A DNA stretch of 37,713 nucleotides from Fidelibacterota bacterium. GTDB taxonomy: Bacteria; Fidelibacterota; Marinisomatia; Marinisomatales; SCKK01. Location: the NCBI GenBank assembly GCA_004124475.1, contig SCKK01000035.1, positions 1 through 37,713 on the forward strand, written 5' to 3'. Made by a program: the position numbers and the translations under genes. Shown in pieces: positions 6,316 to 10,418 of this stretch (within the stretch, counting starts at the first letter, position 1; each line of letters begins with the position of its first letter). The notes under the pieces were generated by a model. It was not told the DNA's origin. It saw only the letters and a program-made list of their open reading frames with translations, and searched no databases.

Positions 6316-6548
6316 TGCGTATTCTTGTCTCCCTGTTGAATAATGGGAGATTCCACCCCGATACGTTCGTTCCTCACTACGGGGCAGGCCCCCGCATCCG
6401 CTATGCTACTGATGGGATTTCCCTGCCTGGTAGGCAGACAGGCGCTATGCTCAACAATGACATAATGACCCTAGTGAAATACCTCCTTCGTCGGATTTCA
6501 CAGGGCAAGCAGCGCAGCGAAGTTAATGACTATCAATAGTGCAATGAA
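6316..6548. repeat. GC-rich dispersed repeat, copy A (core 6356-6389)
   Basis: The gap after the HTH-Wzz gene holds a GC-rich repeat. Its core reads GATACGTTCGTTCCTCACTA and then CGGGGCAGGC. Near-identical cores occur at 7889-7933 and 8275-8317. The apparent 74-codon frame across it looks like repeat translated by chance, not a gene. Confidence 0.75.
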
Positions 6549-7700: not shown

Positions 7701-7829
7701 TTGACATATGTAGAGAAATGCACTCGATGCAGTGGAGAAGTAGTTGAAAAGAATGTTAAAGAGATTCTTTCCGCTACAGTTCCCGATGTTTCGGGACGGA
7801 CGGGAAAGGCCCCGAACAGTCGTTTCTAA
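7701..7829 (+). pseudogene. Truncated YgiT-type zinc-ribbon antitoxin fragment
   Basis: A good ribosome site (AAAGGAGG, 7688-7694 region) precedes TTG 7701. The product starts MTYVEKCTRCSGEVVEKNVK, the N-terminal half of a YgiT/MqsA-like zinc ribbon (first C-x2-C pair). The second Cys pair is missing, because the reading frame runs into a GC-rich repeat at about 7775. The remaining residues are repeat-encoded. An alternative longer frame from GTG 7626 exists. I treat it as a remnant broken by the repeat. Confidence 0.55.
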
Positions 7830-7933
7830 TAAAGCTTCGCAACCTGCCCGACTGCGTCATTCAGGCGGGCGGGACAGGTCGTTCCCTACCCCAGTACGCT
7901 CGTTCCTCGCTACGGGGTTGGCGGGACAGGCAG
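7780..7933. repeat. GC-rich dispersed repeat, copy B (core 7889-7933)
   Basis: The core reads CCAGTACGCTCGTTCCTCGC, then TACGGGG, matching copies A and C. It is surrounded by CCTGCCC/GGGCGGG inverted stretches. The repeat sits exactly between a 3'-truncated YgiT fragment and a 5'-truncated HEPN fragment, so it marks a deletion or insertion junction. Confidence 0.75.
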
Positions 7934-8227
7934 TATTTTGAGTTCTGTTTTGAATTAGCCTGGAAAAGCATTAAAATTTTTTGTGAAGAACAGGGGCTCA
8001 GCGATTGTAATTCACCAAAGAAAGCACTCAAACAAGCTTTTGCTTTAAAATGGATTGGAAAAGAAGAAATTTGGCTTGAAATGCTTTCGGCAAGAAATCA
8101 AATGGCACATACTTATGATTCCAAAGATGCTTTACAAATCTATTATCGTTTGTCCTTTTTTGTCCCGGAGCTATCAAATCTAGCAAAAAAATTGCAACAG
8201 GAATTGACAGATGGTAATAATCCCTGA
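7934..8227 (+). pseudogene. HI0074-like HEPN (nucleotidyltransferase substrate-binding) protein, 5'-truncated
   Basis: In frame 2 this region reads FEFCFELAWKSIKIFCEEQG, then WLEMLSARNQMAHTYDSKDA and ends at a TGA at 8225-8227. This matches the HI0074/TIGR01987 family, whose conserved FEFTFELAWK and RN-x3-HTY motifs I recognise. The first 35 or so residues and the start codon are missing; the sequence emerges from the repeat. The partner nucleotidyltransferase is absent next to it. It is a broken toxin-antitoxin remnant. Confidence 0.8.
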
Positions 8228-8274
8228 GTTGTGCTTTCAACTTGAATGTACCTGCCCGCCCTTATTTTTCGCTA

Positions 8275-8317
8275 ACCCAGTATGGTCGTCCCTCCCTACG
8301 GGGCAAGCGGGGCAGGC
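8275..8317. repeat. GC-rich dispersed repeat, copy C
   Basis: The core reads CCCAGTATGGTCGTCCCTCC, then CTACGGGGC. It is the third member of the family with copies A and B, and is followed by further GGGCAGGC strings to about 8340. It lies just after the HEPN remnant and before the antitoxin gene at 8398. Confidence 0.75.
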
Positions 8318-8397
8318 ATTCTTCCCTATAGGGCAGGCGATAGATAAACTTATAAGGTGAATAATTAAAGTTAGGTAAGTGAGGAGGTAATAATCAC

Positions 8398-8622: not shown

Positions 8623-8903
8623 AAACTCTGGTATGGAGTAAAACGTTCCTGCGAGCATTTAAACAAGCCATTCGAAGACAGCCTGAATTGGAAGTAAGAG
8701 TAAAACATTCACTACAACAATTAGCGGAAGATCCCTTTCACCCATCGCTACACAGTCATAAGTTGAAAGGATCGTTAAAAGGATCTTGGGCCTGCACAGT
8801 TGATTATGATAATCGAATTTTATTCGAATTAGTAAAGAATCCGGAATCAGGTGAAGATGACATTTTATTATTGACAATGGGAACTCATGATGAAGTTTAT
8901 TAA
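8619..8903 (+). CDS. RelE/YafQ-superfamily mRNA interferase toxin
   Basis: A 94-aa toxin fold protein. The N-terminus VWSKTFLRAFKQAIRRQPEL, a middle part with LAEDPFHPSLHSHKLKGSLK, and a C-terminal VDYDNRILFELV region match the RelE/ParE-type arrangement (HKLKG...YRILF). The length is normal and the frame intact. GTG start (GTGA overlap with the antitoxin). RelE toxins cleave mRNA at the ribosome; ParE-like action on gyrase cannot be excluded from sequence. Confidence 0.78.
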   Translation: MKTLVWSKTFLRAFKQAIRRQPELEVRVKHSLQQLAEDPFHPSLHSHKLKGSLKGSWACTVDYDNRILFELVKNPESGEDDILLLTMGTHDEVY

Positions 8904-9214
8904 GTACTTAGTGTATTGTAAGCCTGTAAAGTTCATTAAGTCTAACAAAGCCAATAAACTTTGAATAGCCCTAATAACAAAAAATCCTTAAATTTATTCT
9001 TATCCACAAATGGCCCGTCTACACTGCACTACCCATCTTCACTTCCATCATAATTTCATTACGATGGATAAACCGTTACGATGGACAGGCGACGGGCAGG
9101 CCCGCCAAAAAAACCGGTGGGTCAGGCAATGACCACTAAAAACCTTATATTTCTATTCGCCTGTCCTGTGAAATACGAAGGATGAGCAAATTTCTACAGG
9201 ATGGACAGTGATTA
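8904..9214. repeat. Palindrome-rich intergenic gap
   Basis: This 311-base gap shows no gene. CCCGTCTACAC at about 9004 repeats a string from the 3701-4121 gap. TCCATCATAAT and TTACGATGGA form an imperfect palindrome around 9050-9070. A further hairpin at 9165-9200 has CCTGTGAAAT and ATTTCTACAGG arms. Its arm matches the terminal repeat of the GIY-YIG element 50 bases downstream. Confidence 0.65.
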
Positions 9215-9250
9215 GTGGATAAAATACTTGTTACTGGTTCTGCCGGCTTT

Positions 9251-9544
9251 ACCCTGTGAAATAATTTCATATTTCTAATAGAGATGAAAATGTATTACAC
9301 ATATGTTTTGCTGAGCGAAAGGGATGGAAATATGTATTCTTGATTTACTGAGAATATGAAATTAAGATTTGAGCAGCATCAAAAGGGATTTGTTGATTCA
9401 ACAAGAAATAGGCGACCATTAGCGTTAATTTACTATGAAGCATGCAAGAGTAAAGATGATGCGATCAGACGAGAAAAGTATTTTAAAACCCACTATGGTA
9501 GGATGTTTATCAAGAAACGGCTCAAATCTTATTTCACGGGGTGA
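9251..9544 (+). mobile_element. 294-bp GIY-YIG element with terminal inverted repeats
   Basis: The left end reads ACCCTGTGAAATAA. The right end region reads TTATTTCACGGGGT, its reverse complement with one mismatch. The element splits the epimerase gene between codons TTT and ATC, and removing it restores GSAGFIGFHL exactly. It holds one gene, a GIY-YIG nuclease, whose last codons (SYFTG and stop) lie within the right repeat. Its length is a multiple of three. No target duplication can be shown. I consider it a small mobile unit. Confidence 0.78.
9284..9544 (+). pseudogene. GIY-YIG endonuclease with in-frame stop
   Basis: The frame reads MKMYYTYVLLSERDGNMYS, then a TGA stop at 9341-9343, then FTENMKLRFEQHQKG, LIYYEACKSKDDAIRREKYF and ends RLKSYFTG. 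In intact members the position of S-stop is the I-G of the YIG motif (MYIGFT). The two-part GIY-YIG signature is therefore lost, while the Arg and Glu regions (LRFEQH, AIRREKYF) remain. The downstream 62-codon part could start at ATG 9356 but would lack the GIY motif. The gene is probably inactive. Confidence 0.85.
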
Positions 9545-9941
9545 ATCGGCTTTCATCTCTCAAAGTCACTCCTTGATGATGGCTACCAGGTGCTGGGGAT
9601 TGATAATATCAACGATTACTACGACCCCAAACTCCCTCTTGAAAAGGTAGATATTGCAGATAGAGAAGCTCTCACCCAATCATTTCAATCATTCAATCCT
9701 GACAAAGTTGTCAACATAGCCATGCAAGCTGGAGTACACTACAGCATTGAGAATCCTTATGCATACATGGATTCCAACTTGGTCGGCTTTTTAAATATCC
9801 TAGAATTATGCCGGCACAATAAGGTGGAAGGATTTGTTTATGTGTCTAGTTCTTTGGCTCATGGATGTAACACCAAAAATACATTTAGTGAGGACGGGGT
9901 TAATAATCCAATTTCATTGTATCTAGAATATATTAGTTCAC

Positions 9942-10418
9942 ATGGGTAATCATAATATTAAACTTCTTGTTTATGACTTCGATGGTGTTATGACTGATAA
10001 CAAAGTCTATGTTGACCAAAAGGGAAATGAAATGGTTCAAGTAAACCGGGCGGATGGGTTGGGTGTTAGTGAAATAAAAAAACTTGGTATTGAGCAAATC
10101 ATTATTTCAACAGAAAAAAATACTGTGGTAACATTTAGAGCCGCTAAACTTGGTATTCCCTGTTTGCAGGGGGTTGATAATAAGAAAGCAGCTTTAATGG
10201 ATTATTGTAAAAAAAACGATATTGATATTCAGAAAGCAGCTTATGTGGGTAACGATATAAATGATAAGGACGCCATGGAGATTGTAGGCTTTACATACAG
10301 TCCTGCAGATGCCCATGAAAGTATTAAAGCAATTTCAGATCAGGTATTGAGAACAAAGGGTGGCCATGGCGTCATCAGAGAATTATTGGATTTCATCATA
10401 GAAAAAAAAGGAGTATAA
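9942..10418 (+). CDS. KdsC-type HAD phosphatase
   Basis: A 158-aa HAD-superfamily phosphatase of the KDO-8-phosphate phosphatase type, without a cap domain. Motif I is VYDFDGVMTDN (nucleophile and acid aspartates), the threonine/serine motif is IISTEK, and the acidic motif is YVGNDINDKDAM. Next to NeuB and NeuA genes, the likely substrate is the 9-phosphate of a nonulosonic acid (Neu5Ac-9-P or KDN-9-P), not KDO-8-P. That is context inference. The start overlaps the epimerase remnant by 8 bases. The length is normal. Confidence 0.85.
   Translation: MGNHNIKLLVYDFDGVMTDNKVYVDQKGNEMVQVNRADGLGVSEIKKLGIEQIIISTEKNTVVTFRAAKLGIPCLQGVDNKKAALMDYCKKNDIDIQKAAYVGNDINDKDAMEIVGFTYSPADAHESIKAISDQVLRTKGGHGVIRELLDFIIEKKGV

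Follow-up and report, generated by a model that had tools for sequence, protein, structure and literature searches.

A decayed inverted-repeat element with a lone GIY-YIG nuclease gene in an epimerase gene of Marinisomatales, and its relatives in other phyla

Described systems and the design of the element

Known bacterial transposases use a few chemistries (DDE, HUH, serine and tyrosine). Penelope-like elements combine a GIY-YIG endonuclease with a reverse transcriptase, and Slx1 is a branched-DNA nuclease. A 2006 survey of the GIY-YIG superfamily left open whether further families are molecular parasites (PMC1564403). The main text of a report on CPR rRNA genes describes GIY-YIG ORFs in non-intron insertions, which were judged to lie outside spread by homing (PMC11270868). 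In REP/RAYT systems, the palindromes are kept by compensatory changes (PMC2817692).

REP/RAYT is the nearest known system in design to the element described here. As in that system (PMC2817692), a small nuclease gene lies between inverted palindromic units, gene-less copies of the unit are dispersed and compensatory changes occur; the inverted flanks pair in 40 elements, and copies of the flanking unit are abundant in three genomes (G042, G044 and G045) and few or absent in most others. The differences are that the enzyme is GIY-YIG rather than HUH/Y1, that the ends read CCCNGT and lack a GT(A/G)G head, that the two arms, at opposite ends of the whole element, pair with one another, and that copies occur within genes in addition to intergenic sites. 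Since enzyme class and head motif both differ, the element works like REP/RAYT without being a member. It shares with freestanding GIY-YIG homing endonucleases (phage Seg/Mob type, I-TevI) a nuclease as sole gene and conserved coding targets, but its 84 residues are too few to include a further DNA-binding domain, its inverted arms covary, ORF-less copies with the same ends exist and its targets change from one gene family to another. Terminal inverted repeats, short non-autonomous copies and clean insertion recall MITEs and small insertion sequences, from which it differs in having no DDE or HUH transposase and no fixed-length target duplication, duplication being absent in most copies and 54-60 bp long in others. 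Like Penelope-like elements it has a GIY-YIG endonuclease in a mobile element, yet it is bacterial, 290 bp long and without reverse transcriptase, and, unlike the UPF0213/COG2827 and Slx1 host proteins, this nuclease branch is carried by an inverted-repeat element. The CPR rRNA insertions resemble it in holding GIY-YIG ORFs outside introns; in the main text of that report (PMC11270868) the term inverted repeat does not occur and mini copies are not described. Among the open-access papers searched, none describes a GIY-YIG element with ends of this kind.

An old insert in an epimerase gene

The window is the whole stretch of DNA analysed, 37,713 nucleotides of a Fidelibacterota contig. A 294-bp element (98 codons; 9251..9544, with 9252-9545 equally possible since the boundary is ambiguous by 1 bp) is inserted at the GF|IG codons of a gene for a NAD-dependent epimerase; element, arms, nuclease ORF and both epimerase fragments are on the forward strand. 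The left fragment (VDKILVTGSAGF, 9215..9250) has a GTG start and is in frame with the right fragment (9545..9949), a pseudogene with an internal deletion and a truncated C-terminus. One frame is common to the left half (GTG at 9215), the nuclease (ATG at 9290) and the right half (from 9545). In-silico removal of 9251-9544 yields VDKILVTGSAGF|IGFHLSKSLLDDGYQVLGIDN and neither adds nor removes a host codon; the joined flanks restore VTGSAGFIGFHLSKSLL, the halves read through, and the PF01370 match of the joined protein spans the junction (residue 5 to 72). An uninterrupted paralogue in the same genome (L102, G000:C51:15192) reads GGTGCCGCTGGCTTC|ATCGGCTTCCAC, that is GGCTTC|ATCGGC at the insertion place, and is the known empty site for this element. 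The window has no target duplication at the element. A preliminary description had proposed a 294-bp inverted-repeat insert that cleanly splits the epimerase gene, shares one frame with it and on excision restores a conserved turn without codon change, and all of this holds.

The only protein of the element is a GIY-YIG nuclease (84 aa, 9290..9544; PF01541, E 4.5e-12); there is no tyrosine (HUH/Y1) transposase. An in-frame TGA at 9341-9343 falls at the YIG motif, where the earlier reading had placed it, giving Y-S-stop where relatives have Y-x-G. With this stop, and with the epimerase decayed beyond the insertion itself (internal deletion after DYYDPKL, truncated C-terminus), the copy reads as an old relic that is no longer able to make active nuclease. 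Catalytic positions are conserved in relatives, the invariant residues including Y15, G17, R25, H29 and E61, which argues for retained nuclease activity there. The structure is predicted with a pLDDT of 95, its nearest folds being UPF0213 (1zg2) and Slx1 (6seh), and 1zg2, 1ywl and 6seh (UPF0213/COG2827, Slx1) are the nearest sequences and folds overall. By profile and fold the nuclease is thus of Slx1/UPF0213 type, and cleavage of branched DNA is predicted. No match to the nuclease was found in a defence library or among NCBIfam models, and phage GIY-YIG homing endonucleases match it weakly.

The left arm (TTTACCCTGTGAAATAA, 9248..9264), whose outer TTT is also part of a host codon, and the right arm (TTATTTCACGGGGTGAA, 9529..9545), which codes for the last nuclease residues (YFTG-stop, stop at 9542-9544), are complementary at 15/17 positions. 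The near-matching ends noticed at the outset, with the nuclease finishing inside the right repeat and its stop at the edge, are accordingly real features of the locus. A right-end motif, TCAAATCTTATTTCAC (9522..9537), is kept in relatives whose ORF stops upstream of it. The arms score 12.0, where shuffled sequence has its 95% point at 9.0 and reaches 12.5 at most; those of this one locus are only moderately unusual, at the top of the shuffled range, so the case rests on the relatives, and the family-wide result is decisive.

The source genome holds one DNA-level copy of the 294-bp element among 8 diverged GIY-YIG matches; its second element (L027) has CCGTTAGA ends. A group I intron or other known RNA family was rejected, as no Rfam covariance match was found at E up to 1 in window positions 8900-10000. 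Carriage by phage or plasmid was likewise rejected, with no copies of the element in plasmids or viral contigs and one weak match in phage records. Elsewhere in the window, other GC-rich palindromic repeats of CCCAGTACGCTCGTTCCTCGCTACGGGG and CTGCCCGCCC types (7790-7935 and 8250-8340) lie between small toxin-antitoxin-type genes, making a repeat-rich island.

Relatives, insertion sites and gene-less miniatures

A strict end pattern with a 200-230 bp gap had no matches in 31 genomes, because ends vary and the allowed gap was too short, so that relatives had to be sought by protein. The protein search recovered 53 loci with identities of up to about 70%, in Bacteroidota, Elusimicrobia, Cloacimonadota, Aminicenantes, Patescibacteria, Marinimicrobia and other phyla. 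In about 40 relatives, from several phyla and patchy within each, the GIY-YIG ORF is enclosed by inverted arms; more distant loci, mostly Patescibacteria beside tRNA genes, are without them. The nuclease element is present in 4/395 Bacteroidia and 6/245 genomes of its own phylum, at 1-3 full copies per genome, and no two near-identical full-length copies were found at different sites of one genome. The idea of dispersed GIY-YIG repeats in Bacteroidetes needs two corrections: the element is neither high-copy in its source genome nor specific to Bacteroidetes. The same architecture recurs at unrelated sites in many genomes, and the segment is not a fixed part of the epimerase gene in relatives, which supports mobility and the proposal of a minimal mobile unit with a GIY-YIG nuclease as its only gene.

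In the closest branch the order is left arm, 4-45 bp, ORF and right arm, the last usually formed by the final codons (KSYFTG-stop). Four relatives (L047, L049, L052 and L053) have an ORF that stops earlier, and right-end sequence resembling TCAAATCTTATTTCAC persists in them outside the coding sequence, as an exact match in L053 and as TCAAATCTTATTCCAT in L049. The arm ends share the consensus TTYACCCNGT followed by a variable inner part; arms thus vary among copies (GTGAAATA, GTTAAATA, GTGGAATA, GTGTAATA, GTGAGATA, GTTAGAATC and GTTCCAAC) and pair within each. Among the 40 elements in which both arms could be placed, pairing is 90.2% Watson-Crick against 66% (maximum 76%) after shuffling, with 81 double changes against a shuffled maximum of 40; 0/2000 shuffles reach the observed value, the shuffle ignoring kinship in each case. 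C-terminal coding changes (F to L, T to I) are mirrored in the non-coding left arm.

Once the hosts are joined, a Pfam domain match spans the junction in 9 cases: the epimerase of the window, a PDDEXK_3/GxxExxY gene (L061, junction GTGTTT|ATGCAG) and seven four-helix 23S_rRNA_IVP genes (L141, L149, L035, L039, L043, L042 and L036). The boundaries were free to shift by 0-5 and 0-6 bases when joins were chosen; for that reason a join exact to the base is asserted only at the window and L061, and the IVP cases are clean at the level of the domain. By these joins, insertion cost the interrupted genes little or nothing net. Insertion sites fall in conserved motifs (epimerase GF|IG, 23S-IVP N-I-A|E-G and GxxExxY), some repeatedly, with six insertions at the epimerase GF site and several at the IVP motif. 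In the other epimerase GF insertions (L003 of the sister species, L041, L048, L050 and L137) a second complete gene start follows. Not all sites are clean: L050 carries a perfect 54-bp duplication and L044 one of 60 bp, L041 is two units in tandem with the upstream unit truncated, and the main element of L143 is not inserted base-perfectly. The nuclease tree, which is poorly resolved, follows neither host phylum nor target gene; for example, L041 (epimerase) and L143 (IVP gene) group together at 82% identity. Close nuclease relatives thus occupy different gene families, and the L041 tandem fits homologous repair. We note that at one locus (L149, G478) two different nuclease elements interrupt a single IVP gene, and that at another (L136) the gene apparently split is that of a Y1/IS200-like transposase.

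Miniatures are ORF-less palindromes of 31-55 bp with the same ends as the nuclease element. One lies in the window (CCCTAGTGAAATACCTCCTTCGTCGGATTTCACAGGG, 6469..6505), and the epimerase start is closely preceded by a probable decayed one (CCTGTGAAAT...ATTTCTACAGG, 9165..9200); upstream of the sister species' own element, GTGAAATACTTCCTTCGTCAGATTTCAC occupies a corresponding place. Beside the nuclease element of L143, a 54-bp ORF-less unit (ACCCTGTGAAATAA...TTATTTCACAGGGTGA) splits the same IVP gene at TTT|ATC, the junction letters of the window insertion. The pattern CCCTGTGAAATN{4,34}ATTTCAC occurs in 5/390 random Bacteroidia versus 10/29 nuclease-bearing genomes, with about 60 copies in G042, 15 in G045 and 10 in G044, and none for reversed-pattern controls. 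Within Bacteroidia, with phylum membership in part assigned by the analysts from locus titles, miniatures are found in 5/19 genomes with the nuclease versus 4/386 (Fisher p = 1.5e-5). Most lie in non-coding repeats, in either orientation. Two inner hairpins are present in 35/61 miniatures versus 1/61 shuffled, usually capped by triloops of the type C-AAA-G or C-GNA-G, and single-stranded examples folded as DNA form perfect three-way junctions (z about -7 to -8).

A 39-bp CCCTGTGGAAT unit is dispersed in the own genus, at non-matching sites in the two species; miniatures with the CCGTTAGA ends of L027 were searched for and not found. Miniatures with CCCTGTGGAAT ends do not track nuclease end type, so these two results do not support a strict pairing of each nuclease with miniatures of its own. 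Many nuclease-bearing genomes lack miniatures of the two end types searched, some genomes have miniatures and no close nuclease relative, and more than one end type can share a genome. At L231 (939-1096, G045:C237) miniatures stand in head-to-tail tandem, like BIMEs. Three loci of G042 (L199, L208 and L209) have the same flanks, the miniature in opposite orientations and different inner hairpins, as if the unit flipped or was replaced in place.

A second nuclease branch lies beside tRNA genes, both in the own order (L004-L031) and in Patescibacteria and others (L057, L060, L062-L064, L071, L072, L077, L078 and L081). Most of these GIY-YIG ORFs have a complete tRNA gene no more than about 100 bp away (for example, tRNA-Ser in L013, tRNA-Gly in L057 and tRNA-Leu in L064); the opposite flank often carries a partial tRNA copy, and GC-rich palindromes are often present too. 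Degenerate tRNA copies beside the nuclease, at 1417-1490 in L011, at 1409-1493 in L028 and also downstream of the ORF in both, have hairpin palindromes in, or replacing, an arm. The nuclease adjoins a tRNA-Met(CAT) downstream of its ORF in L009, L010 and L017; in two of these, L009 and L017 from genomes of different families, a similar AGCAGACTCA remnant flanks the nuclease on its opposite side.

Competing explanations and what the element may be

The best reading is a REP/RAYT-like mobile system with an Slx1/UPF0213-type GIY-YIG nuclease as its enzyme. The arms would be extruded to form branched DNA, the nuclease would cut at the arm junction, the target or both, and the element, or a miniature copy moved in trans, would be joined by host repair. 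Mobility of the element is well supported by comparison of the loci, and we infer that the nuclease is the mover. That the 294-bp segment is a decayed minimal mobile element which its nuclease moved through the branched arms seems on balance probable. The helper proposed for this copy in the preliminary description is plausible, since the nuclease is interrupted here; gene-less copies with the same ends exist.

A freestanding homing endonuclease gene, cutting conserved motifs and copied in through flanking homology with arms that are incidental or transcript-protecting, would account for the repeated hits on the epimerase GF and IVP N-I-A|E-G sites, for the duplicated gene starts that leave an intact gene (L003, L041 with its tandem, L048, L050 and L137) and for the weak phage match. 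We consider it unlikely, because it leaves unexplained the arms that match within and differ between copies, the right-end motif kept outside the ORF and the ORF-less same-end copies at unrelated, mostly non-coding sites, and because close relatives sit in different gene families. Were homing the mover, the element would fall back to a variety of a known kind. Another enzyme could move the palindromes: the nuclease gene may be a passenger that rode into a REP-like palindrome moved by a RAYT, a different enzyme, or replication and repair. Miniatures are indeed much more numerous than nuclease copies, and some genomes have them yet lack a close relative of the nuclease, but the association between nuclease and miniatures, the building of the nuclease gene into the right arm and the conserved catalytic residues make a passenger quite unlikely. 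All the observations are also compatible with a mixed model, in which the nuclease cuts conserved targets and repair draws on a structured donor.

The arms would also pair as RNA, and the preferred hosts are genes of the 23S-IVP family, as might be expected if the segment were cut from the transcript in the manner of 23S rRNA intervening sequences. Interrupted protein genes would then need re-ligation, however, Rfam gave no match and many miniatures lie in non-coding repeats in either orientation, so an RNA-level process is very improbable. Chance, or a fixed segment with no mobile unit behind it, could appeal to the moderate score of the arms at a single locus; against all the family-level results, the uninterrupted homologues and the recurrent architecture, its probability is practically negligible.

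Returning to the nuclease-driven reading, there is about an even chance that these loci represent a new class of transposable element, in which a lone Slx1-like GIY-YIG nuclease serves as transposase, recognizes the branched DNA of its own arms and moves both itself and REP-like miniatures that form three-way junctions, with a similar sister branch beside tRNA genes. Its newness rests on anatomy (a sole GIY-YIG gene, covarying arms and miniature partners) rather than on a proven mechanism, and intact copies in cultured environmental isolates, such as Draconibacterium orientale (L041), Mangrovibacterium marinum (L038) and Psychroflexus longus (L039), make the element directly testable. If true, this would bring a further transposase chemistry, that of an 84-residue GIY-YIG nuclease, and the 290-bp element that it drives would rank with the smallest autonomous mobile elements. 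Such an element would also account for dispersed palindromes and for the small GIY-YIG genes that are abundant but unexplained in Bacteroidota, Marinimicrobia and Patescibacteria, and it would settle the question of molecular parasites left by the 2006 GIY-YIG survey (PMC1564403).
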